The position numbers and the translations under genes are program-made. The notes under the pieces are model-generated. The model ran no database searches. It was given only the letters and a program-made list of their open reading frames with translations, and had not been told where the DNA came from. This document shows, one piece after another, positions 6,720 through 23,662 of a stretch of 23,662 nt of DNA; positions within the stretch are counted from its first letter, which is position 1; the number at the start of each line of letters is the position of its first letter. The stretch is from a virus. The stretch covers positions 1 through 23,662 of the IMG/VR virus record IMGVR_UViG_3300003894_000031; one strand, 5' to 3'.

Positions 6720-8826
6720 TGAACAATCCCGCAGCTTGTGATTTAGCAAGTTGTCGAATGGTCTCTCGATCTCGTTCCATCAATGCATTTATCTCAGCAA
6801 TGTTGACCTGAGTGCCATATTTGGCAGACAGTTCAGCAGCCTTTAAGCGTATATCCGCTTCGGCTTCATCGCGTTTAAAGTCATCTTCCATAATCAGTTT
6901 CATGCGATCCGTTTCAGAATCGATGATTGCCTTTTGTGCTTGCACTTGGGCTTTTTGTATCTCTGCTTGTGCCAACATTTCAGCAGCATCAGGTTTTTGC
7001 TCTCCTTGCTGTGGTGGCATCGGCGGTATATCGGTGTTGATAAACGCACTCACATCTTTAAATCCAGCCAATTCGATGATGCGAGCCAGTGTATTTGCGT
7101 ATTGTTGCAAGCTCACCATTGGGTTTTGTGGCCCCAAGGTTTGTAAAATCTGTTCTTGTTTGCCCGCCATTTGAGCCAAAACTTGCATTTTTTCCTCATC
7201 CGAACCTTTGGATATGGCGACATTGACCACGATGTCCTTGTTTGTATCCCAATATCTCGGATCAACAGGCACAAACTCGTTGTTTAAGCGAAACACATCT
7301 TGTTTGTCTTGGTTTTTAATAACCAGGTTGTTGACCAGACCGTATAAGTCACGCAAACCTTCGGCAAAGTGACGACAAATCAACTCGATTCTGCCTTGTG
7401 CGGCAGACATGGTGGCTGTTACGGCAGCTTTGGTGGATGATTGCAACGCATCGGCGTTCAGACCCGCAGCAGCCTTTGAGACACCACTGCGGTTTTCGGA
7501 AGCCTCATCCAGATAATTGAGGACTCCAAATGCTTCGCGCCCCACAAATGGCGTGGTCAGTGGTTGCACCATACCAGGCGCACGCATACGAATCGGTTGC
7601 CCGATGTCCGTATTTAAAACGTCCTCAATATTTACTTGGCCCTCAACGATTCCGAATCTGGGGTGGATGGCGGCACCCAATGAATCAAGTGTGTCTCGCA
7701 TGATCTGAGACTTCGAGGCTTGTATTGGTATGAGAAAGTCTGCGGGGCATGAGCCAATGGCGGTATGCGGTTCAGGATCGGGAGAGAAGATTGTGATAGG
7801 TAGATCATCCCAAGGCATCGCATTGACTATGTTCATGCCATTGCCCAGTGTGCAGACTCGGATGCGCTCATCAATGCCATCGCCATCCAAATCGTAAAAT
7901 AAATAATGTTCGACATACAATATGTCTTGTCCAGCGGGGTCGGGGCGGTCGGCATACATGACCTCGCTCAGAGGATTCCTTGCTTGTTCCGCCTCAAATT
8001 CAGCCGTGTCATATACACCACCTGTACCCGAATATTGTTCAATCTCTTCTTTTTCATAACCCATGGCAATCAGCTCGCTCATGGTTTTGACCATGCGATG
8101 TGCAACATAGGGTGATGTGTGTATGTCTCTTGCAGCACGAGAAATCAAAATCTCTTCGGGCGGTACTGCCTCGATGACCACTTGGTCTTTTGCTTTGACT
8201 CGTCTGATTTTTAGATCGTAACTGAGTGGGCGTTCCTCGGTGATCTCATCGCCTGTCATTTCGTTTATGATCGTCAAAGTTTCCATTTCAGCTTTTTCCT
8301 CAACGATCTCGACATTCTCATCCATGATGAGTGCGGTGTAATCTTCAGGTGAAATATTGCTGAACTCGTGGCAAGTGGATGTCACAGAATCATCCCAATA
8401 GCACTTGATGTAACCCGTTTTTCTAATCAAAGCATCCTTAAAAGCGTTATACATGACCTGAAAGCCTGGATTCTTCTCTTGTATGATGTGATTGATATAC
8501 GCCGTTTGCTGCTCGGCAAAAGGTATGTCCTCGGCAGAGTGCGGTACAAACTCAACCACTTTCTTTGTGCCAAAGAAGGTACGCATGATCGATGGCAGCA
8601 TGAATAACACGCTGTCTCTGACATCGGTTGAAATGTATTCCGATTGCAACTCAGAAGTTGCGCCAGGTTCTTTGCCTAAATAATAACGAGTTGCCTCGTC
8701 ACGTTCTTGCCCAATCTGTTCGATGAAATCCTGTGCGGATTCCATTTCGCTTTTGACGACCGCTTGTAAATCAAGCGTATCTTCATCGCTAATATCGTAT
8801 GACCCTTTGGTATCTGTATATTCCAT
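6700..8826 (-). CDS. Portal protein
   Basis: 708 aa, the dodecameric ring at the capsid vertex through which DNA enters and leaves. Visible landmarks are the N-terminal FIEQIGQERDEATRYYLGK helix, SEYISTDVRDSVLFMLPSIMRTFFG, the FKDALIRKTGYIKCYWDD strand region, IEAVPPEEILISRAARDI, and the C-terminal helical crown/barrel rich in Q, A and E (AEMLAQAEIQKAQVQAQKAI). The DVxDxVxxxxPxxxRxFxG and GxGxxKxxW-like patterns are typical of large podovirus and SU10-type portals. The length suits that group (about 700 aa). It sits directly after the large terminase (6-base gap), the usual order. Confidence 0.9.
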   Translation of the reverse strand: MEYTDTKGSYDISDEDTLDLQAVVKSEMESAQDFIEQIGQERDEATRYYLGKEPGATSELQSEYISTDVRDSVLFMLPSIMRTFFGTKKVVEFVPHSAEDIPFAEQQTAYINHIIQEKNPGFQVMYNAFKDALIRKTGYIKCYWDDSVTSTCHEFSNISPEDYTALIMDENVEIVEEKAEMETLTIINEMTGDEITEERPLSYDLKIRRVKAKDQVVIEAVPPEEILISRAARDIHTSPYVAHRMVKTMSELIAMGYEKEEIEQYSGTGGVYDTAEFEAEQARNPLSEVMYADRPDPAGQDILYVEHYLFYDLDGDGIDERIRVCTLGNGMNIVNAMPWDDLPITIFSPDPEPHTAIGSCPADFLIPIQASKSQIMRDTLDSLGAAIHPRFGIVEGQVNIEDVLNTDIGQPIRMRAPGMVQPLTTPFVGREAFGVLNYLDEASENRSGVSKAAAGLNADALQSSTKAAVTATMSAAQGRIELICRHFAEGLRDLYGLVNNLVIKNQDKQDVFRLNNEFVPVDPRYWDTNKDIVVNVAISKGSDEEKMQVLAQMAGKQEQILQTLGPQNPMVSLQQYANTLARIIELAGFKDVSAFINTDIPPMPPQQGEQKPDAAEMLAQAEIQKAQVQAQKAIIDSETDRMKLIMEDDFKRDEAEADIRLKAAELSAKYGTQVNIAEINALMERDRETIRQLAKSQAAGLFNGTGSG

Positions 8827-8832
8827 GTGTGT

Positions 8833-10368
8833 TTATCCCACTCGTATAATTTTTGATTTGAGGGGTTTTTTGAAATTATACCCCATCGAGGAAATCGTGC
8901 CACCCGTAAAGGTCGCAGCGGTGCTTGCCATCGTCAGTGCCAGCGCATCGGCTTTGTCGGGAGACTTGATGCCGCGCTTGCGCATTGCCTCTTTTGCTTC
9001 AATCTTTATCTTGCCAGCACTTGTATAAGTATATTGCGGTGAGGTCAGTTCTGCAATCAATTCGTCATCCTCTGGCAAGCGACAATCTCTTTTGGTGAGC
9101 CAATCCTTAATCGCAAACCACAACTCGGCACGAAGATTTAAATAGTTTCTGCGACTGGCGGGAGACTCCGCAACATTGACACCGCGCACTGGCATACCCA
9201 TCTCAGAAAGACGATCCACCACGCCCGAACCTAGACCAATGACATCGACCAATATCTCTTGCGGTTGATTCATTGTGGTCGCAGAATCATAAATATTTTT
9301 TATGGCCCCGCAGAGTTGCATCAAATCCATCGATTTAAATGTTTTAATCTCAAATACCGTGTTGCCCTGGCGAATACACAACGCAGAATTATCGCCCCCG
9401 AATCGTGCCACATCCAAACCCCATACAATCGGCTCGGATGCAGTCAATTCCACATCGCGATTCACCGCTGCTCTTGCCAACTCCAAAGGAATCACAGTGT
9501 CGTCATCGGCTTTTGGAAACTGACCCATGACCTCGACTCTGGCAACGGTGGAATCCTCACCGTATTGCTCAATCATTTTATGAAACAACGCTTGGTCTGT
9601 GCCTTCGACATCACGCGAGTCGATCTGTTCCGTGTTCCAGTACGCTCGTTTTGAGTGAAACGCATCGAAAAATGGCCCAGTGTTACGCCTTGGGTTTGAG
9701 AAGCACATCCAATAACGATCTTTGGTGGGTTCTGTAAAAAAGCCCTCAGACACACTAAAAATGGACTTATCTATACCTGAAGATTCATCCATTATTAAGC
9801 AAACGCCATACGATGAATGAACCCCAGCGAATGCATCTGGATTGTCAGGCGACCAAAGTTGAGCTTGTGCATAGTAATAGCCGCAATCGATGTTTAGGTC
9901 TCTGACCAATAATTCTTCAAACCATTGTTGCGGTCTCAATGTGGTCGCTGTCTTTGCAAACCAATGACTGTTAATAAGAAGCGTATGCCATTTGCCCAGT
10001 TCAGCCCATGTTCTCGATCTGAGCTGTTGCTCGGTGTTTGCTGTAACAATGACTGTTGCACCAAGCCGCGTTGAAAGCATCCAAAGAATGATCCAAGACA
10101 CCAAAGCCGACTTGCCGATACCACGACCAGAGGCAACTGCGAGTCTAAACATCTCAGGCAGATCGATTGTTTCGTTTTTGCGTATGTGATTGCCAATATC
10201 TCTTAAAATTTTTTCTTGCCACTCTCTAGGGCCATCAAAGTCCTGGAGGGGGGTGTTCTCGATGCCCCAAGGGAAGGCATAACGCACAAAGTTTAACGGC
10301 GAATCCTTTATGGTGAGTGACCATATATCGGTCATCAATTCTTCTTCTTGTTTAGGGGTGTATTTCAT
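8833..10368 (-). CDS. terL: Terminase large subunit (DNA packaging ATPase-nuclease)
   Basis: 511 aa from ATG 10368, which lies 17 bases inside the end of the radical SAM gene; a TTG at 10380 is the alternative. The ATPase domain has Walker A SGRGIGKS (residues 80-87) and Walker B VCLIMDE (189-195) with the catalytic Glu 195, and a coupling-type SNPRRN follows. The RNase-H-like nuclease domain has WGLDVARFGGDNSA (Asp 319), EILVDVIGLG (Asp 375) and SPDKADALALTMA (Asp 474), the expected metal-binding acidic triad. It cuts concatemers and pumps DNA into the prohead through the portal encoded next to it. All key residues are intact. Confidence 0.95.
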   Translation of the reverse strand: MKYTPKQEEELMTDIWSLTIKDSPLNFVRYAFPWGIENTPLQDFDGPREWQEKILRDIGNHIRKNETIDLPEMFRLAVASGRGIGKSALVSWIILWMLSTRLGATVIVTANTEQQLRSRTWAELGKWHTLLINSHWFAKTATTLRPQQWFEELLVRDLNIDCGYYYAQAQLWSPDNPDAFAGVHSSYGVCLIMDESSGIDKSIFSVSEGFFTEPTKDRYWMCFSNPRRNTGPFFDAFHSKRAYWNTEQIDSRDVEGTDQALFHKMIEQYGEDSTVARVEVMGQFPKADDDTVIPLELARAAVNRDVELTASEPIVWGLDVARFGGDNSALCIRQGNTVFEIKTFKSMDLMQLCGAIKNIYDSATTMNQPQEILVDVIGLGSGVVDRLSEMGMPVRGVNVAESPASRRNYLNLRAELWFAIKDWLTKRDCRLPEDDELIAELTSPQYTYTSAGKIKIEAKEAMRKRGIKSPDKADALALTMASTAATFTGGTISSMGYNFKKPLKSKIIRVG

Positions 10369-15483: not shown

Positions 15484-16071
15484 TCAGAAAGGAATGTCGC
15501 TATCGTCTTGGGGGTTATCTTCTGCCACTGGCTCTCCAAAACCAGGCTCCTCGTATGCGCCGTTGGGTTCGTTCTTTTCAAACTCATCCGACTCGACCCA
15601 TTTGACCAACTTAAACTGTGGCACTCGTGTATTGCCTTTGCCTATTTTGATCGCCTCAGAACCCGTGTATTCGATCACGGGAAACTTGCCCACGTTCTCT
15701 GCTTGTTGGGCATGAATCTCGCTGTAAAGGTTCTCAAAGCCAATGTTTGATCCAGTGGTTGTGGTTGACCATGTTCTCAGCCCTTCCTCTTGGATAAACA
15801 TATCCACAGAGAAACCACGTTTGTATTCCATTTTTTCTTCTTCCGTGTCACCTGGTCTGATGGCTCTTTTGCCAAGGGCTTCATCAAACACCCAATCAGG
15901 GGCTTCTCCTTTGGTAATTTTGCCCCATCCTGTTTTCACAGAAGTTGGGTTGAGCATGAAATACTTCAAAGAAATTTCATAATCCTTTCCAGTAAACCAT
16001 CCATTAGTAGATGGCATGTATCGGATGAACAGCTTATCGTCAGCTGCATCGTTTAGTCCTAATAAACTCAT
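15484..16071 (-). CDS. Single-stranded-DNA-binding protein (SSB-like, DDSDIPF tail)
   Basis: 195 aa. An N-terminal beta-rich region (DDKLFIRYMPSTNGWFTGKDYEISLKYFMLNPTSVKTGWGKI) and an OB-fold-like middle are followed by a long acidic tail (ESDEFEKNEPNGAYEEPGFGEPVAEDNPQDDSDIPF). The final DDSDIPF is the standard SSB tip that recruits helicases and nucleases. It sits upstream of the primase-helicase and downstream of the methyltransferase. AAGGAGAAG lies just before ATG 16071. The body is unlike bacterial SSB and more like phage-specific ssDNA-binding proteins. This is a confident functional call from tail plus context. Confidence 0.82.
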   Translation of the reverse strand: MSLLGLNDAADDKLFIRYMPSTNGWFTGKDYEISLKYFMLNPTSVKTGWGKITKGEAPDWVFDEALGKRAIRPGDTEEEKMEYKRGFSVDMFIQEEGLRTWSTTTTGSNIGFENLYSEIHAQQAENVGKFPVIEYTGSEAIKIGKGNTRVPQFKLVKWVESDEFEKNEPNGAYEEPGFGEPVAEDNPQDDSDIPF

Positions 16072-17285: not shown

Positions 17286-17468
17286 CTAATGCACCAACCC
17301 TTTGAACTCTTTGTATCGATCCACGAGCCAAAAGAATCGTGTGTCCACATAGACCTCGTATTCCAATGGTTCTTTGTCATCTGATTTGCAAGATTCCACA
17401 TAACCCTGATAAAAGGATTTAATGAAATCCAAAAACTCTGCGAAATCGCCTTTATCATCACTGCTCAT
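17286..17468 (-). CDS. Small acidic protein, 60 aa
   Basis: MSSDDKGDFAEFLDFIKSFY, then QGYVESCKSDDKEPLEYEVYVDTRFFWLVDRYKEFKGLVH. Acidic and rich in aromatic residues, probably helix-strand-helix. ATG 17468 overlaps the end of the nuclease gene by 11 bases and has AAAGGCG before it; a frame one base later gives a 63-aa alternative that looks like a shadow. It lies between nuclease and methyltransferase in a tight operon. No family recognised. Confidence 0.6.
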   Translation of the reverse strand: MSSDDKGDFAEFLDFIKSFYQGYVESCKSDDKEPLEYEVYVDTRFFWLVDRYKEFKGLVH

Positions 17469-17892
17469 GTTTCGCCTTTATATAAGAGATGAATGGATGC
17501 AAGAATTTATCGAAATCCATGCGTACAAAATATTCGTTGTATTCAGGTTGATGCTCTCTTTCTGTGATGAACATCATCAAAGGGAATTGCACCTCTGATT
17601 GTTGCCGATCAAATCGGTAGATGAGTAGGGGGATGGCATTTTGATAATCAGCAGCTTTCGTGACTTGATCCCACCAGGCGGTGAGGGGTTTGTTGCCTTT
17701 GGCATATCGTTTGCACTCAATCACAAAACCATAGTCCTCAAGACCAACGAGATCGCCTCGGTCTCTTTCTTGGTATTGTGCTAAATCACGTTGTACTTTG
17801 ATGGGTAAATCTGCCATGTAAAAAGCCTCGTTTAAAATTCGCGCAACTTCATTTTCGTAAGCTTTGCCCTTCGTTCTGCTTTTCTTTGACAT
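17458..17892 (-). CDS. PD-(D/E)XK nuclease, Holliday-junction-resolvase-like
   Basis: 144 aa from ATG 17892, eight bases after AGGAG. The N-terminal helix RTKGKAYENEVARILNEAF has Glu 13/15; RDLAQYQERDRGDLVG gives Asp 47 and FVIECKRY gives Glu 59-x-Lys 61, the complete PD-(D/E)XK metal site. KxGKxxExxVA...GDLVG...VIECKRY resembles phage-encoded endodeoxyribonucleases and putative Holliday-junction resolvases. It is the second gene of the leftward arm, next to methyltransferase, SSB and primase, so processing of replication intermediates is the likely role. A restriction-type function paired with the methyltransferase cannot be excluded. Confidence 0.75.
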   Translation of the reverse strand: MSKKSRTKGKAYENEVARILNEAFYMADLPIKVQRDLAQYQERDRGDLVGLEDYGFVIECKRYAKGNKPLTAWWDQVTKAADYQNAIPLLIYRFDRQQSEVQFPLMMFITEREHQPEYNEYFVRMDFDKFLHPFISYIKAKHEQ

Positions 17893-17916
17893 GCGCAAAT
17901 CTCCTATTTTTTGCGT

Positions 17917-18081
17917 TTATTTTTCACCGTTTTCAATTTTCTCGGCTTCTTCTCTGATTGCTTTTTTAAGTATGCTTTCCACTACATTTTTAATGCTGCG
18001 CCTCTGAAAGTCCGCTAAACAAAGGATTTGAGCGTGTAGCTCTGGATCAACCCATAGTGCTTTGTATTGTGGTTTTTTCAT
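17917..18081 (-). CDS. Ribbon-helix-helix (Arc-type) DNA-binding protein, 54 aa
   Basis: MKKPQYKALWVDPELHAQIL, then CLADFQRRSIKNVVESILKKAIREEAEKIENGEK. The layout is that of a ribbon-helix-helix dimer: strand YKALWV, helix A PELHAQILCLADFQ, turn, helix B IKNVVESILKKAIREE. It is the first gene of the leftward arm and sits against the divergent promoter region. By analogy with Arc and CopG, it probably represses one or both divergent transcripts. There is no ribosome binding site before ATG 18081, so translation may be weak or from a leaderless mRNA. The next gene follows 24 bases after its stop. Confidence 0.75.
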   Translation of the reverse strand: MKKPQYKALWVDPELHAQILCLADFQRRSIKNVVESILKKAIREEAEKIENGEK

Positions 18082-18112
18082 AAATATACAACTTGAAAAA
18101 GATGACCCAATA

Positions 18113-18144
18113 GTAGTTGTAATTTATATATAAGTCTATATATT
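18113..18144 (+). promoter_or_regulatory. Rightward sigma70-like promoter with GTAGTTGTAA copy 2
   Basis: TTGTAA at 18117-18122 as -35 and TATATT at 18139-18144 as -10, 16 bases apart, drive into the cassette array. The -35 is part of the GTAGTTGTAA motif (18113-18122). Around the spacer TATATA-TAAGTC-TATATA is an imperfect palindrome, a possible operator for the divergent ribbon-helix-helix protein. No equally good leftward promoter is visible. Confidence 0.5.
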
Positions 18145-18183
18145 GAACATTAAATAAACATTTCACATACATAGGAGAACGAA

Positions 18184-18459
18184 ATGCAACTTACTGTAAA
18201 AGAATACGATCCAATCGAAGCTAAAAAAGAAAGAGAGTTAGAAATCAAAAGAAGGCGAAAACAATACAAACTGCCACTCTCTTCTGAAATTAGAGAGGAA
18301 ATACTTAGGCGATGCGAGATACTTCGATATGAGGGTGATGCCTCAATTATGAGCAATTATTATGAGTCAACCGATCAAGAGTTGGTTGATAATTATAGTT
18401 GGGTTCTTAACTCAGAGCATGATGACCATCTTGGCAAACCATACACAATTACAATTTAA
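18184..18459 (+). CDS. Cassette gene 1, charged 91-aa protein
   Basis: MQLTVKEYDPIEAKKERELE, then a very basic stretch (IKRRRKQYKLPLSSEIREEILRRCEI), and an acidic C-terminal half (YYESTDQELVDNYSWVLNSEHDDHLGK). It is probably a helical protein with a possible DNA- or RNA-binding segment. It is the first gene after the rightward promoter, behind leader copy 1. Very early small phage genes often redirect or inhibit host functions, but no family is recognised here. Confidence 0.65.
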   Translation: MQLTVKEYDPIEAKKERELEIKRRRKQYKLPLSSEIREEILRRCEILRYEGDASIMSNYYESTDQELVDNYSWVLNSEHDDHLGKPYTITI

Positions 18460-18482
18460 TTTCACATACATAGGAGAACGAA

Positions 18483-18644
18483 ATGGAATGGAACAAAAAA
18501 GTAAAAGTTGAATTAACAATAGGTGAGATATTTGAAATTGTTGGTCATTTAAAAGATGTCATTAAAGCCAATGGTGGAACAGATTACACTGATGATGATG
18601 TTGTTAATGCCTTTAATAAACTTTATAAAATAACTGTCAAATAA
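18483..18644 (+). CDS. Cassette gene 2, 53-aa protein
   Basis: MEWNKKVKVELTIGEIFEIV, then GHLKDVIKANGGTDYTDDDVVNAFNKLYKITVK. It is too short for many gene callers but has the exact leader copy 2 before it, and leader copy 3 starts at the base after its TAA. The predicted layout is strand-helix-helix-strand. The function is unknown; the cassette position is the main evidence. Confidence 0.75.
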   Translation: MEWNKKVKVELTIGEIFEIVGHLKDVIKANGGTDYTDDDVVNAFNKLYKITVK

Positions 18645-18667
18645 TTTCACATACATAGGAGAACGAA

Positions 18668-18907
18668 ATGGAAATAAAAACATTCACCAACAACAGTTGG
18701 GTCACTTTTGACAGAACAGATGTAAACCTAGATGGCATTAGATACACAACAACAAGTAATTATTGGTGCAAAATTATTGAAGAAGATATGCCAAAGTTAA
18801 AAGCATTGTTAGGTGACAGACTTTATGAGATTGCACTTGATGGTGGTAGTAATGGAGAGGGTGGTAATACTATTGCGATACCCGAAGATGAAGTATGGGC
18901 AAAATAA
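18668..18907 (+). CDS. Cassette gene 3, acidic 79-aa protein
   Basis: MEIKTFTNNSWVTFDRTDVN, then LDGIRYTTTSNYWCKIIEEDMPKLKALLGDRLYEIALDGGSNGEGGNTIAIPEDEVWAK. Net acidic with several strands and one helix. It is flanked by leader copies 3 and 4 with no spare base. Small acidic early phage proteins are sometimes anti-restriction DNA mimics, but nothing in this sequence proves that. Confidence 0.7.
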   Translation: MEIKTFTNNSWVTFDRTDVNLDGIRYTTTSNYWCKIIEEDMPKLKALLGDRLYEIALDGGSNGEGGNTIAIPEDEVWAK

Positions 18908-18930
18908 TTCAACATATATAGGAGAACGAA

Positions 18931-19173
18931 ATGAAACAAACATTCAAAGTTGATTGCAATGAAAATATATATGGAAAATGTGAAGCAGATATTGTGACTT
19001 TAAAAGAGTTCATTGAAGATGCTGAATCATGGGAATTAGAGCAAGGAAATCAATTCGGAGCATTTAAGCATGATGAATACACAGTTGAGAATCTAAAGAA
19101 AATGAAAACAGGGCAGACGATAACAACATATTCACCTTATGGTTGGGACACGAAAGTTACTCGAATCAAATAA
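18931..19173 (+). CDS. Cassette gene 4, acidic 80-aa protein
   Basis: MKQTFKVDCNENIYGKCEAD, then IVTLKEFIEDAESWELEQGNQFGAFKHDEYTVENLKKMKTGQTITTYSPYGWDTKVTRIK. Mixed strands and one acidic helix. It has leader copy 4, which is slightly diverged (TTCAACATATATA start), and leader copy 5 follows its stop directly. No family recognised. Confidence 0.7.
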   Translation: MKQTFKVDCNENIYGKCEADIVTLKEFIEDAESWELEQGNQFGAFKHDEYTVENLKKMKTGQTITTYSPYGWDTKVTRIK

Positions 19174-19196
19174 TTTCATTTATATAGGAGAACGAA

Positions 19197-19439
19197 ATGG
19201 AACAACAAAAAAGCAAATTCAGTTTGTTTTGGTTCATGGGAGATATATTAGTTAACTTTTATGACAAAAATGGATTAGAGCATAAATGCGGTAACGAAAC
19301 ACTGTGTGAGTTGATGTCTTTAAATGCCAGAGATGCCAAAACAGAAAAACAAATCAAATGGCTCAAGCGATGGAACAGAATCTATGAAGAAGTAGATTAC
19401 AGAGAAGAAGAAAGAGGCAATCCAAGTTGGGCAAAATAA
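19197..19439 (+). CDS. Cassette gene 5, 80-aa protein
   Basis: MEQQKSKFSLFWFMGDILVN, then FYDKNGLEHKCGNETLCELMSLNARDAKTEKQIKWLKRWNRIYEEVDYREEERGNPSWAK. It has a hydrophobic, aromatic N-terminus (residues 8-21), then a helical charged region rich in W, K, R and E. It ends in PSWAK*; cassette gene 3 ends in EVWAK*, so the two genes share their last WAK codons (GGGCAAAATAA). That may reflect homologous joints at the leader. Confidence 0.7.
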   Translation: MEQQKSKFSLFWFMGDILVNFYDKNGLEHKCGNETLCELMSLNARDAKTEKQIKWLKRWNRIYEEVDYREEERGNPSWAK

Positions 19440-19462
19440 TTTCATTTATATAGGAGAACGAA

Positions 19463-20311
19463 ATGGAAACACTCAATAAAGCCTTTGAGCTTTATGTGTG
19501 CGACCTCAATCGCCGAGAGAAGAAAACCGTATCTTCCATGGAGAGGGCATGGCACAAACACATCAAAGACTCAATAGGTGACAAAAACATCAAACGCATC
19601 AAACACGATCAGATCAACGATTGGTTCTATGAGGTCAGCAAAAGTGGCAATGGCATCGCCAATCGATGTCTCACGATATTGAAATGCACATTTGATATTG
19701 CCATGCGATACGAGATGATTGAGCAAAACCCATGCACCTTTATCAAGCGACATCCAGACTTGCAACGCAAACGCTATTGCAGTGAAGATGAAATGAAACG
19801 CATCTTTGATGTACTGAATCGCAAACGCACAAAAGACAATCAGAAACACATCGATTTCATCATGCTTTTAATTTACACAGGTTGTCGCAAGGGTGAGTTG
19901 GCATCTGCCAAATGGGATGACCTAGAAGGCAACAGAATCGTTTTAAGGGAACACAAGACCGATGACAAAGATGGTGATCGCGTGATCCATCTAAACGATC
20001 AAGCGATGCAGATTGTGAACCGTTTGGAACGCAAAGGCAGTTCAATGATGCAAAGCAAATACCCCGATAAGTTTTGGTTGCAAGTGAGGGAAGAGGCGGG
20101 TGTACCCGATCTTCGTTTACACGACCTCAGACATTCGTTTGCGACATTTGCTCTGCGTTCTAAGAAAGTGAGCCTTGTTGAAATAGGCAACCTTCTAGGG
20201 CATAAAAGTCCAAAGACGACTATGCGTTATGCACACGTCATGGATGAGACTGCCAAGCAGAATGTGAACGATGTTGGCAACGAGATTTTTAATTCAATAC
20301 AATCATCATAG
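19463..20311 (+). CDS. int: Tyrosine recombinase (phage integrase)
   Basis: 282 aa, behind leader copy 6. The N-terminal SAM-like core-binding domain covers about residues 1-95. The catalytic set is complete: Arg 142 (YTGCRKGEL), Lys 165 (LREHKT), His 220 and Arg 223 (LHDLRHSFAT), His 247 (LLGHKSP) and Tyr 256 (MRYAHV). It integrates the phage genome at a host site and, with a directionality factor, excises it. This shows that the phage is, or descends from, a temperate phage. It lacks the long arm-binding N-terminus of lambda Int. No clear attP core or tRNA fragment is seen nearby. Its stop TAG overlaps the next ribosome binding site. Confidence 0.95.
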   Translation: METLNKAFELYVCDLNRREKKTVSSMERAWHKHIKDSIGDKNIKRIKHDQINDWFYEVSKSGNGIANRCLTILKCTFDIAMRYEMIEQNPCTFIKRHPDLQRKRYCSEDEMKRIFDVLNRKRTKDNQKHIDFIMLLIYTGCRKGELASAKWDDLEGNRIVLREHKTDDKDGDRVIHLNDQAMQIVNRLERKGSSMMQSKYPDKFWLQVREEAGVPDLRLHDLRHSFATFALRSKKVSLVEIGNLLGHKSPKTTMRYAHVMDETAKQNVNDVGNEIFNSIQSS

Positions 20312-20320
20312 GAGAACAAT

Positions 20321-21037
20321 ATGACAAAAGATGATTTTGCAGATGTCAATAAAGTCAAAGTAGGGCGCACCACTCGGTTTGTGACTTACTACATCAATGA
20401 CGATGACATCGAAGAAAAACGCATCCAGCTCAAGGAAGCGACCGATCCACCCCTTCGTGATAAGGGCAAGACACGACACATATTAAAGGAATACATCGAA
20501 GAGAAATCGAGGAATCCTTATCACATGCCACAGCTTGAATTGGCAATCAAATATGCAGTCAGAAACAAAGCCAATATATTGAGTCCAAAGCTCGGTTCCA
20601 GGATCAACAACTTAAAGTTTGTGAGCCTGATGTTAGAGGCATACAACAAGTATGGCCTAAAATTTGCAGCACTCGACATTTGGGGCATCCATTGGATTCC
20701 GATGGACATGATGGCAAACATCGTGGCACAGAATCGCAAAAAGATTTCTCGTAACACGAAGAAAGCAATGGCAAAACTGAAAGCCAAAGGCATGAAGTTT
20801 GGCAATCCAAACATCAAGGAAGCCACCAAAAAAGCCTCGGAAGATCACACCAGACGAGCCAATGACTTTGCGGTCACGATGCGCCCTGTGGTGAAGAAGA
20901 TTCAAAAGAGTGGGGCGACCACCTATCAAGACATTGCCAATAGGCTCAATGCCGAAGGCATCAAATCACGCTATGGAAGAACCTGGTACGCATCAAACGT
21001 CAGGAATCTATTATTAAAAATTAAGGAGCTCAAATGA
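20321..21037 (+). CDS. Degenerate serine-recombinase-like protein
   Basis: 238 aa. From about residue 70 it lines up with the small serine resolvase fold: PQLELAIKYAVRNKANILSPKLGSRINNLKFVSLMLEAYNKYGLKFAALDIW, then MDMMANIVAQNRKKISRNTKKAMAKLKAKGMKFGNPN, then a C-terminal helix-turn-helix (GATTYQDIANRLNAEGIKSRYGRTWYASNVRNLL). Two catalytic sites are lost: the YxRVS start is TYYINDDD (Ser replaced by Asn 26), and the KLDRLSR loop is KLGSRIN. It therefore probably binds DNA without cutting, perhaps as a regulator or directionality factor for the adjacent integrase. It ends as ATGA overlapping the next gene. Confidence 0.75.
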   Translation: MTKDDFADVNKVKVGRTTRFVTYYINDDDIEEKRIQLKEATDPPLRDKGKTRHILKEYIEEKSRNPYHMPQLELAIKYAVRNKANILSPKLGSRINNLKFVSLMLEAYNKYGLKFAALDIWGIHWIPMDMMANIVAQNRKKISRNTKKAMAKLKAKGMKFGNPNIKEATKKASEDHTRRANDFAVTMRPVVKKIQKSGATTYQDIANRLNAEGIKSRYGRTWYASNVRNLLLKIKELK

Positions 21038-22459: not shown

Positions 22460-22759
22460 ATGTTAGATATAACTGTTACAACCAATCCTAATATTAGTTT
22501 AAGGGCAAACTATTGTCCACCGACATCCAAATCGGTATGTTTTTGGTCACTAAAGCATGAGAACTATGCACAGATAAAAACAAATTCCATTGATGGTGTT
22601 GATAAAGATTACAGCACTGGAATGAATTTTCTTATTGTAAAAAACCCAATTACAAAAAAATGCAGTCGTGTCGATATAAGAGAACCAAGAGTGCAAATTG
22701 GGCAAGCTATTAATAGATCAAGAAAGCTGGTCTCAATGCAAGGAGGTGTATCATCGTAG
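22460..22759 (+). CDS. Hypothetical protein, 99 aa, before the exonuclease
   Basis: MLDITVTTNPNISLRANYCP, then PTSKSVCFWSLKHENYAQIKTNSIDGVDKDYSTGMNFLIVKNPITKKCSRVDIREPR... The start at 22460 has AAGGAG before it; an upstream in-frame ATG at 22421 has none and would add 13 residues. The middle looks beta-rich. Its last codons contain the ribosome binding site for the exonuclease, so the two are translationally coupled. A recombination-accessory role is possible by context only. Confidence 0.65.
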   Translation: MLDITVTTNPNISLRANYCPPTSKSVCFWSLKHENYAQIKTNSIDGVDKDYSTGMNFLIVKNPITKKCSRVDIREPRVQIGQAINRSRKLVSMQGGVSS

Positions 22760-22773
22760 GCAAGGTTACACCT
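22744..22773 (+). promoter_or_regulatory. Hairpin enclosing the exonuclease start
   Basis: AGGTGTA (22744-22750) and TACACCT (22767-22773) form a perfect 7-bp stem around a 16-nt loop. The 5' arm overlaps the AAGGAGG binding site; the loop holds the upstream stop codon (22757-22759) and the likely ATC start. Opening by ribosomes finishing the upstream gene would couple translation. Confidence 0.5.
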
Positions 22774-23662
22774 GATTATCAGCTCTCATGTTCTGGTCTA
22801 GCGGTATTTGATCCCAACTACCCTTATGGCCTAACCAAGAATGAGTTGCTGGATCGCTGTATCAGGGCAGCACGATTTGAGAATGTCAGAGACGATAAGC
22901 AACCTCTCTTTATGAGAGTAGGCGATGTCCTGGAAAATCCAATCTTAGAGGAAGCATGTCTTAGGCTCGGTCTAAAAAACCCACAGCTTGATATTGATGA
23001 GCCTCTAATACACAAAACACTACCGCTTGCTGGATCGCCTGATGGCATCGCAACGGCAACGGTAGGTGATGAATCCCCCTTGGTTGTCAAAACCGATTTA
23101 ACGCAAAACATATTTACCTCAAAAAATGAAGAAGTGCGTTTGGTCGGTGATGGCATCCTAGAAGCCAAGACCACGAGAGACTATGGGGAAGATGATCTCC
23201 CCGACTGGCGAGGCAAACTCCAAGCTCAGGGGCTTATGGAATGTGCCGATTTAAACTGGTGCGCTGTCGTGGTCTTGTATGCTTCAACCGATCTCAGGGT
23301 TTATGTTTATGAGCGTGACCCTGAGTTCGGGAAATGGTTGGAAGAAATCGTGACTGACTTTGATGAACGCATAAAGACTCGCAATTACTTTGCGCCAGAG
23401 AACAGCATCGATGCCAATATCATTTGGTCGGAATCGGTGGATAAATTAGTCGAGCTTCCAGATGAAATCGCAATGAAGGTTGAGGACATACAAGCCTCAA
23501 AGCGAATCATTGAGAACGCAAAACAAATCATTGATGACAGAGAGACTGAGATCAAAGCACTTATGCAAGAGAATGATCATGCAGTCACAGGCAACTTTCA
23601 GATCAAATGGGGTTCCAGGCGATACAAAGCAAAGCCAGAAGTCACCAAAGTCATACCCGCAA
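22753..23662 (+). CDS. YqaJ-type exonuclease (partial at window edge)
   Basis: At least 303 aa, running off the end. The N-terminal VTPDYQLSCSGLAVFDPNYPYGLTKNELLDRCI is the conserved opening of YqaJ/lambda-exonuclease-like proteins. Later FMRVGDVLENPILEEACLRLGL gives the helix with Glu. The nuclease core has LPLAGSPDGIA (Asp), GDGILEAKTTR (ExK) and GKLQAQGLMECAD (the QxQ helix). It degrades double-stranded DNA ends 5' to 3' for phage recombination, probably with an annealing protein encoded further on. No ATG, GTG or TTG lies between the in-frame stop at about 22713 and the LSCS block, so I place the start at ATC 22753, six bases after AGGAGG. The start is uncertain. Confidence 0.85.
   Translation, partial: MVGKVTPDYQLSCSGLAVFDPNYPYGLTKNELLDRCIRAARFENVRDDKQPLFMRVGDVLENPILEEACLRLGLKNPQLDIDEPLIHKTLPLAGSPDGIATATVGDESPLVVKTDLTQNIFTSKNEEVRLVGDGILEAKTTRDYGEDDLPDWRGKLQAQGLMECADLNWCAVVVLYASTDLRVYVYERDPEFGKWLEEIVTDFDERIKTRNYFAPENSIDANIIWSESVDKLVELPDEIAMKVEDIQASKRIIENAKQIIDDRETEIKALMQENDHAVTGNFQIKWGSRRYKAKPEVTKVIPA

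Follow-up and report, generated by a model that had tools for sequence, protein, structure and literature searches.

A repeated stop-to-start joint as a probable crossover site for accessory-gene exchange in a family of temperate, podovirus-like phages

We analyzed a 23,662-base virus record (the window, meaning the whole stretch of DNA analyzed) from a temperate phage known from environmental sequence alone. The window contains an array of small genes joined by one short repeated leader. The joint is probably a stop/ribosome-binding-site (RBS)/start adapter that doubles as a crossover site, and the region a site of accessory-gene exchange. The phage family hosting this site is temperate and podovirus-like.

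Results

A compact array of genes joined by one leader

Six leaders of 23 bp lie within positions 18161-19462, each with an ATG immediately 3' of it, and five of the six start directly after a stop codon. An initial annotation had described this arrangement, and its positions were confirmed exactly. The features of the locus and its surroundings are:

15484-16071, minus strand, candidate ssDNA-binding protein (acidic tail ending IPF; from alignment and homologue sequences)
17458-17898, minus strand, PDDEXK nuclease/RusA-like resolvase of the left flank (PF24608, 8.2e-15; phrog_244, 2e-21)
17917-18081, minus strand, HicB/CopG-like small protein, the conserved left border (weak PF05534 match)
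18082-18160, plus strand, A+T-rich block between the divergent HicB/CopG-like gene and leader 1, probable promoter of the rightward operon
18161-18183, plus strand, leader 1, TTTCACATACATAGGAGAACGAA; no gene upstream of it
18184-18459, plus strand, cassette gene orf1 (91 aa; without family match)
18460-18482, plus strand, leader 2, directly after TAA
18483-18644, plus strand, cassette gene orf2 (53 aa; without family match)
18645-18667, plus strand, leader 3, directly after TAA
18668-18907, plus strand, cassette gene orf3 (79 aa; without family match)
18908-18930, plus strand, leader 4, TTCAACATATATAGGAGAACGAA, directly after TAA
18931-19173, plus strand, cassette gene orf4 (80 aa; without family match)
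19174-19196, plus strand, leader 5, TTTCATTTATATAGGAGAACGAA, directly after TAA
19197-19439, plus strand, cassette gene orf5 (80 aa; without family match)
19440-19462, plus strand, leader 6, directly after TAA
19463-20311, plus strand, tyrosine-recombinase integrase (282 aa; phrog_1, 2.9e-51; PF00589, 8.9e-21)
20298-20320, plus strand, degenerate seventh leader (core ATAGGAGAACAAT), overlapping the end of the integrase gene
20321-21037, plus strand, serine-recombinase-like protein (PF07508 above cut-off), the array's right border in most lineages examined
22756-23661, plus strand, RecE-like recombination exonuclease (phrog_434, 2.9e-24), cut by the window end

The leftward genes of the window include those for the scaffold, portal, large terminase, a radical-SAM protein, a primase-helicase, a methyltransferase and the PDDEXK/RusA-like nuclease. 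The rightward genes are the five small ORFs (orf1-5), the tyrosine integrase and the serine-recombinase-like gene, with the RecE-like exonuclease at the truncated right end. G+C content is 28-36% in orf1-5 vs 44% in the leftward backbone. As had been proposed, the gene bodies of orf1-5 are unrelated (no match in all-against-all blastp) and the last leader serves the integrase, leader 6 directly preceding its ATG. Position and similarity pattern suggest that the block at 18082-18160 is the promoter: relatives remain similar across the left flank and the whole block, and the similarity is lost past the first ATG. A single, weak σ70-like match at 18117-18144 is no better than the shuffle rate.

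The leader had been called invariant, which holds for its 3' part and not for its 5' part. All six copies agree in the final 13 bases (ATAGGAGAACGAA) and the ATG; over the full 23 bases three of the six are identical and the other three deviate at three positions, all within the 5' ten bases. The leader contains AGGAG a few bases 5' of the ATG. The seventh, weaker copy, CATAGGAGAACAATATG, stands ahead of the gene starting at 20321. Dinucleotide shuffles predict 0 such leaders in the window.

Sequences ahead of the starts of the other window genes are weak and varied; their best agreement with the 13-nt core is 9/13 positions, and usually six or fewer. We also examined 151 unrelated phage loci (1.25 Mb), obtained by chance or via a distant nuclease. 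Three or more genes with a common upstream 13-mer (at most one mismatch) occurred in 0/151 of these loci; the window has six. Plain RBS similarity is ruled out as an explanation by the other window genes and these unrelated loci. L180 was the sole control that looked like an exception when settings were loosened, and it proved to be a protein with internal repeats.

Across 20 related or leader-bearing records, searched whole, core matches (at most two mismatches) fell on one strand per record and, in relatives, at the array locus only; a reversed control pattern had no match in the same records. Among 50,697 phage records there was no convincing match to the leader and no protein match to orf1, orf3 or orf4, and 84,980 bacterial and archaeal genomes held no prophage copies detectable by integrase or by leader pattern.

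Gene content changes completely between conserved flanks

Loci of relatives were gathered by the leader and, independently, by the integrase, the right-border gene and the left-flank nuclease; all of the loci compared are metagenome contigs. Searching other genomes for the leader located the core at the same locus in relatives. The order of the flanks is kept, with the HicB/CopG-like and PDDEXK genes on the left and the integrase and recombinase-like genes on the right, and the genes between them are wholly different in each close relative. The window has five such genes, L028 two (242 and 87 aa), L018 and L083 a single gene each (95 and 64 aa, respectively), and L081 none. In L081 the promoter leader is joined straight to the integrase, a structure that would be expected of a deletion product. 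Within this close subgroup (the window, L028, L018, L083 and L081) the HicB-like protein is 83-98% identical and the nuclease 91-96%; across all relatives the HicB/CopG-like protein is 41-98% identical. More distant relatives, with left-flank proteins from ~87% down to ~40% identical, carry other gene sets. Across the 28 cassette genes examined the median length is 88.5 aa, and nearly all are mutually unrelated. A fixed set of genes, with leaders as diverged as the genes, would have spoken against a modular array; the opposite was found.

Mosaic accessory regions are common in phages, and a leader that is not special could owe its similarity at the joints to recent common ancestry or, every locus being a metagenome contig, to assembly. 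Ordinary mosaicism of this sort is a very improbable explanation. The same arrangements recur across differently numbered samples (L004 and L012; L042 and L065), the 151 control loci show no repeated upstream 13-mer of this kind, and the core is unchanged between lineages whose left-flank proteins are only 41-51% identical.

Identity breaks within the leader core

We aligned relatives at the ATG and sorted pairs by whether they share the upstream or the downstream side. In pairs sharing the upstream side only, identity usually ends at the ATG. In L028, L018 and L081, 150 or more identical bases run through the ATG, to +3 to +4, and three unrelated genes follow; identity is likewise lost at the ATG for orf1 (window vs L004) and in the pairs L029/L092, L042/L096 and L072/L047. 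In pairs sharing the downstream gene only, identity usually begins 10-19 bases ahead of the ATG. The starts fall within -10 to -18 for orf1 (window, L004), orf2 (window, L029), orf4 (window, L040), the integrase (window, L028, L018, L081, L083) and a gene beginning MKKTKH (L040, L042, L100). The zone common to both types of break is the invariant core.

In blastn alignments of whole regions, 57 of 169 free alignment ends lay at the leader in both genomes (-30 to +10 of the leader ATG in both sequences) vs 0.42 expected for random positions; the 57 ends are not mutually independent and represent about 15 different junctions. The clearest transfer is that of orf2, which encodes an identical protein in the window and L029. 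The shared segment of 177 bp, from 15 bases before the ATG to the stop codon, has 99.4% DNA identity, vs about 74% for the left flank. Single genes are shared elsewhere as well: the orf1 homologue in L004/L012 (95% identical) is followed by the same leader and then by another gene, the orf4 homologue in L040 (98% identical) has neighbours on either side that differ from those in the window, and an orf5 homologue (84% identical) lies in an unrelated 52-kb contig, L166. Some junctions are exceptions: to the right of orf2 in L029 the leader is missing, and in the distant group a different RBS often precedes the right-border gene. A short conserved sequence at module junctions with mosaic breakpoints, the mark of a phage boundary sequence, is found at this locus.

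One cassette gene of L096, encoding an unrelated 95-aa protein, has the same first 18 bases as the integrase (METLNK; L096, oriented, 6772-6789 vs window 19463-19480) with one mismatch, and a crossover just inside the coding sequence is possible there.

The position of the breaks bears on whether the leader is primarily a translation or regulatory signal kept identical by selection, with breakpoints lying there only since gene boundaries tolerate joining, by illegitimate recombination followed by selection. A strong RBS with AGGAG just before the ATG, restriction of the leader to the rightward operon in related records and the fact that lineages can have their own consensus are all consistent with such a signal, and a regulatory role has been proposed for the ESAS of Cluster K phages (PMC3203893). 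We nevertheless consider this account rather unlikely, as breakpoints cluster in the 13-16 base core and not across intergenic DNA, incoming genes begin at the same base past the ATG, the 5' half varies freely, up to an intrinsic terminator, and the same phage's other genes manage without the leader sequence. Regulation and recombination are compatible roles, a uniform good RBS being the safest place for a crossover.

Anatomy of the joint

The 5' part of the leader exists in several forms and travels with the preceding gene. The 5' part TTTCACATAC stays with orf1 in the window and L004, and TTTCATTTAT follows orf4 in the window and L040; the integrase is preceded by four different 5' parts in close relatives. 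Where a TTTCA-type joint has an upstream gene, TAA precedes it in 16/16 cases. Because TAA makes up only 14/26 of the stops in the window (P = 4e-4), the stop is best seen as part of the element.

At seven junctions the 5' part holds an intrinsic-terminator-like hairpin, whose full form is GGCAGCC-AATTAA-GGCTGCC-TTTTTT (-16.5 kcal/mol, z -4.05) and whose U-run adjoins the RBS of the next gene. These junctions are in L028 (7680-7716), L018, L096, L100, L071, L072 and L047, and the hairpins are near-identical in phages with backbone proteins less than 50% identical. In L028 and L096 the upstream stop codon sits in the hairpin loop. The two proteins that end there are otherwise largely different, and both end EEHQTNNRAAN (42% identity over 38 residues by blastp), pointing to a possible shared C-terminal domain. 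The L166 homologue of orf5 has a longer C-terminus; orf5 of the window is without that tail and stops at the joint, where the leader may have supplied the stop upon gene capture.

Related and unrelated repeated joints occur elsewhere. At the same HicB-integrase locus, the more distant relatives L038 and L037 use a third type of leader, TTAACTAACCGAGGATAAAAAAATG, which precedes three genes in L038 (5710-6368) and one in L037 (2388-2412). A second repeated-joint array, in L166 (313-3435), has AACGAAGGGGGTGCGTGATG before several genes and carries the orf5 homologue near an apparently intact serine recombinase. In this joint the stop TGA overlaps the next ATG. Several unrelated L166 proteins end GGA, mostly EGGA ((N)EGGA or similar), because AACGAAGGGGGTGCGTGATG spans the upstream stop TGA and the next ATG. 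Sought in other phages, the L166 joint was found in multiple copies only in the L166 contig. A single complete TAA-leader-ATG lies before a MazG-like gene (10282-10310) in L019, a 63-kb contig whose large terminase is unrelated, suggesting that a cassette was transferred together with its joint.

Recombination functions near the array

Homologues of the RecE-like exonuclease occur in all main lineages of relatives (31-95% identity). The initial annotation had named the phage exonuclease as a possible agent of recombination, which its RecE-like character (phrog_434) and distribution make plausible; that it acts at the leaders is inferred. None of the annealing proteins RecT, Red-beta, Erf or Sak was recognised, and for this reason we only infer the recombination enzyme. 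The product of 15484-16071 is tentatively an ssDNA-binding protein, from its conserved acidic C-terminus ending IPF; the best match in a fold search was a phiC31 integrase + RDF entry (E 0.011, TM 0.34), which is weak.

A tyrosine integrase closes the array in the window subgroup and itself bears the leader, and in most lineages a recombinase-like gene stands at the array border. These features would suit site-specific recombination, in which the integrase or another recombinase uses the leader as an attachment site. As in integrons, there is an array of promoterless genes, a short repeat and a neighbouring tyrosine recombinase. Unlike in integrons, the integrase is not of the IntI type (35 bits against TIGR02249, cut-off 265), the leader does not fold into an attC-like site (z -0.15; no inverted repeats of at least 18 nt were found), the repeat is on the 5' side of each gene and contains the RBS, and arrays also occur apart from the integrase, which is kilobases away in L100 and L088. 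Different phages also have different leader types. Integron-like or integrase-driven exchange was rejected on the integrase score, the lack of a foldable site and the arrays apart from the integrase, which leaves the integrase a poor candidate for the enzyme; site-specific recombination at the leader is very unlikely. The serine-recombinase-like neighbour also speaks against it: the usual catalytic residues (the conserved serine and arginines) are absent from it in an alignment of 14 homologues. Its structure was predicted with low confidence (pTM 0.48) and a structure search gave no significant match; the protein may be a remnant that binds DNA and has a regulatory role. No tRNA that could mark an attachment site is present in the window or in nine related loci.

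Discussion

A proposed route of exchange

Aligned sequences document the joints, whole-gene exchange between conserved flanks, crossovers in the core and transfer between diverged phages. In the exchange model that we favor, each gene would be a cassette whose bounding joint ends in a strong RBS and ATG and, in the TTTCA form, opens with the stop codon of the upstream gene. With one joint common to every gene, any two joints could recombine, whether in two phages in one cell or within one genome, by a crossover within the 13-16 invariant bases. One gene would thereby be exactly replaced, added or lost, with stop, RBS and start intact. Homology would direct the crossovers: the phage RecE-like exonuclease would expose ends, and a phage or host annealing protein, its presumed partner, would anneal them. 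The cassette genes may provide accessory functions that are useful against some hosts only.

The idea of modular cassettes recombining at the leaders, already put forward in the initial annotation, is supported by the change of gene content, the leader breakpoints and the sharing of single genes; the agent in it is presumptive. Other points weigh against the exchange model. At 13-16 bases the core is short for a RecA-dependent process, and random joining followed by selection could mimic the breakpoint map if donor genes already bore the leader. Certain junctions break outside the leader (orf2 in L029 and the right-border gene of the distant group), and the loci are all metagenome contigs, with interdependent alignment ends among those counted.

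Comparison with known systems

Cluster K mycobacteriophages carry 11-19 copies of a 13-bp Start-Associated Sequence (SAS), GGGATAGGAGCCC, before the start codons of non-structural genes (Pope et al. 2011, PMC3203893; PMC12699233). The SAS/ESAS and the leader described here are alike in being short asymmetric AGGAG repeats directly before starts (GGGATAGGAGCCC vs ATAGGAGAACGAA), in one orientation ahead of many unrelated non-structural genes. By printed consensus, the only form in which they were compared, the two cores share ATAGGAG only. SAS genes mostly follow intergenic gaps of more than 50 bp and are scattered across half a genome. The present leader, in contrast, is 23 bp long and directly follows the stop codon. 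Its copies are packed into a compact array, its 5' part takes alternative forms, among them a terminator, and crossovers map to the leader. The phage itself lies outside Cluster K: its portal protein matches Manatee Spring records and Sinorhizobium phage phiM5 best, in every case at less than 60% identity.

The boundary sequences of lambdoid phages are different sequences at few junctions. Here, too, a short conserved sequence lies at gene junctions; unlike in lambdoid phages, one sequence is present at every joint and also provides the RBS and start. Lambdoid boundary sequences are short conserved junction sequences that have been proposed to promote homologous exchange of modules (PMC3029335; PMC2327257); the main objection has been that at most junctions no such sequence can be found (PMC3029335). 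In the Island3/Brujita mycobacteriophages, proteins share only C-terminal residues, and recombination took place at about 50 bp of shared sequence (PMC3029335). The L028/L096 proteins, with their common C-terminal residues, resemble that junction; Island3/Brujita is a single event, whereas the system here is a repeated one. The array is a case of the boundary-sequence kind. New to it are the compactness, a design that runs from stop to start, 5' parts in several forms and the many crossovers mapped directly to one short core.

Implications for phage gene exchange

Functions in anti-defence or host takeover had been suggested for the encoded proteins and have no support yet: Pfam, PHROGs, NCBIfam and PADLOC gave no functional family above curated cut-offs for the cassette proteins tested, and the only significant match, in L025, was to DUF3164, a family without assigned function. 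The description of the proteins as mostly acidic fits the window, where 4/5 have a pI below 6.5, and not the cassette genes overall (16/28). With the joint as a search sequence, small and rapidly changing phage genes can be collected and then tried for functions against bacteria.

Phage mosaicism has been debated as homologous exchange at short boundary sequences vs random joining cleaned up by selection. Here almost all joints of an exchange site bear one sequence of 13-16 bases, and several natural replacements, the transfer of a single gene and an empty site are there for comparison, making the question directly testable. A further-reaching reading, possible though doubtful, is of a dedicated single-gene exchange system, in which a common stop/RBS/start adapter is kept across a pool of phages and a phage-encoded annealing pathway, made up of the RecE-like exonuclease and a presumed partner, trades accessory genes. 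If this were true, accessory genes would be traded singly and always in working form, even between distant phages, and the L038 and L166 arrays, with their unrelated joint sequences, would mean that the strategy arose more than once.
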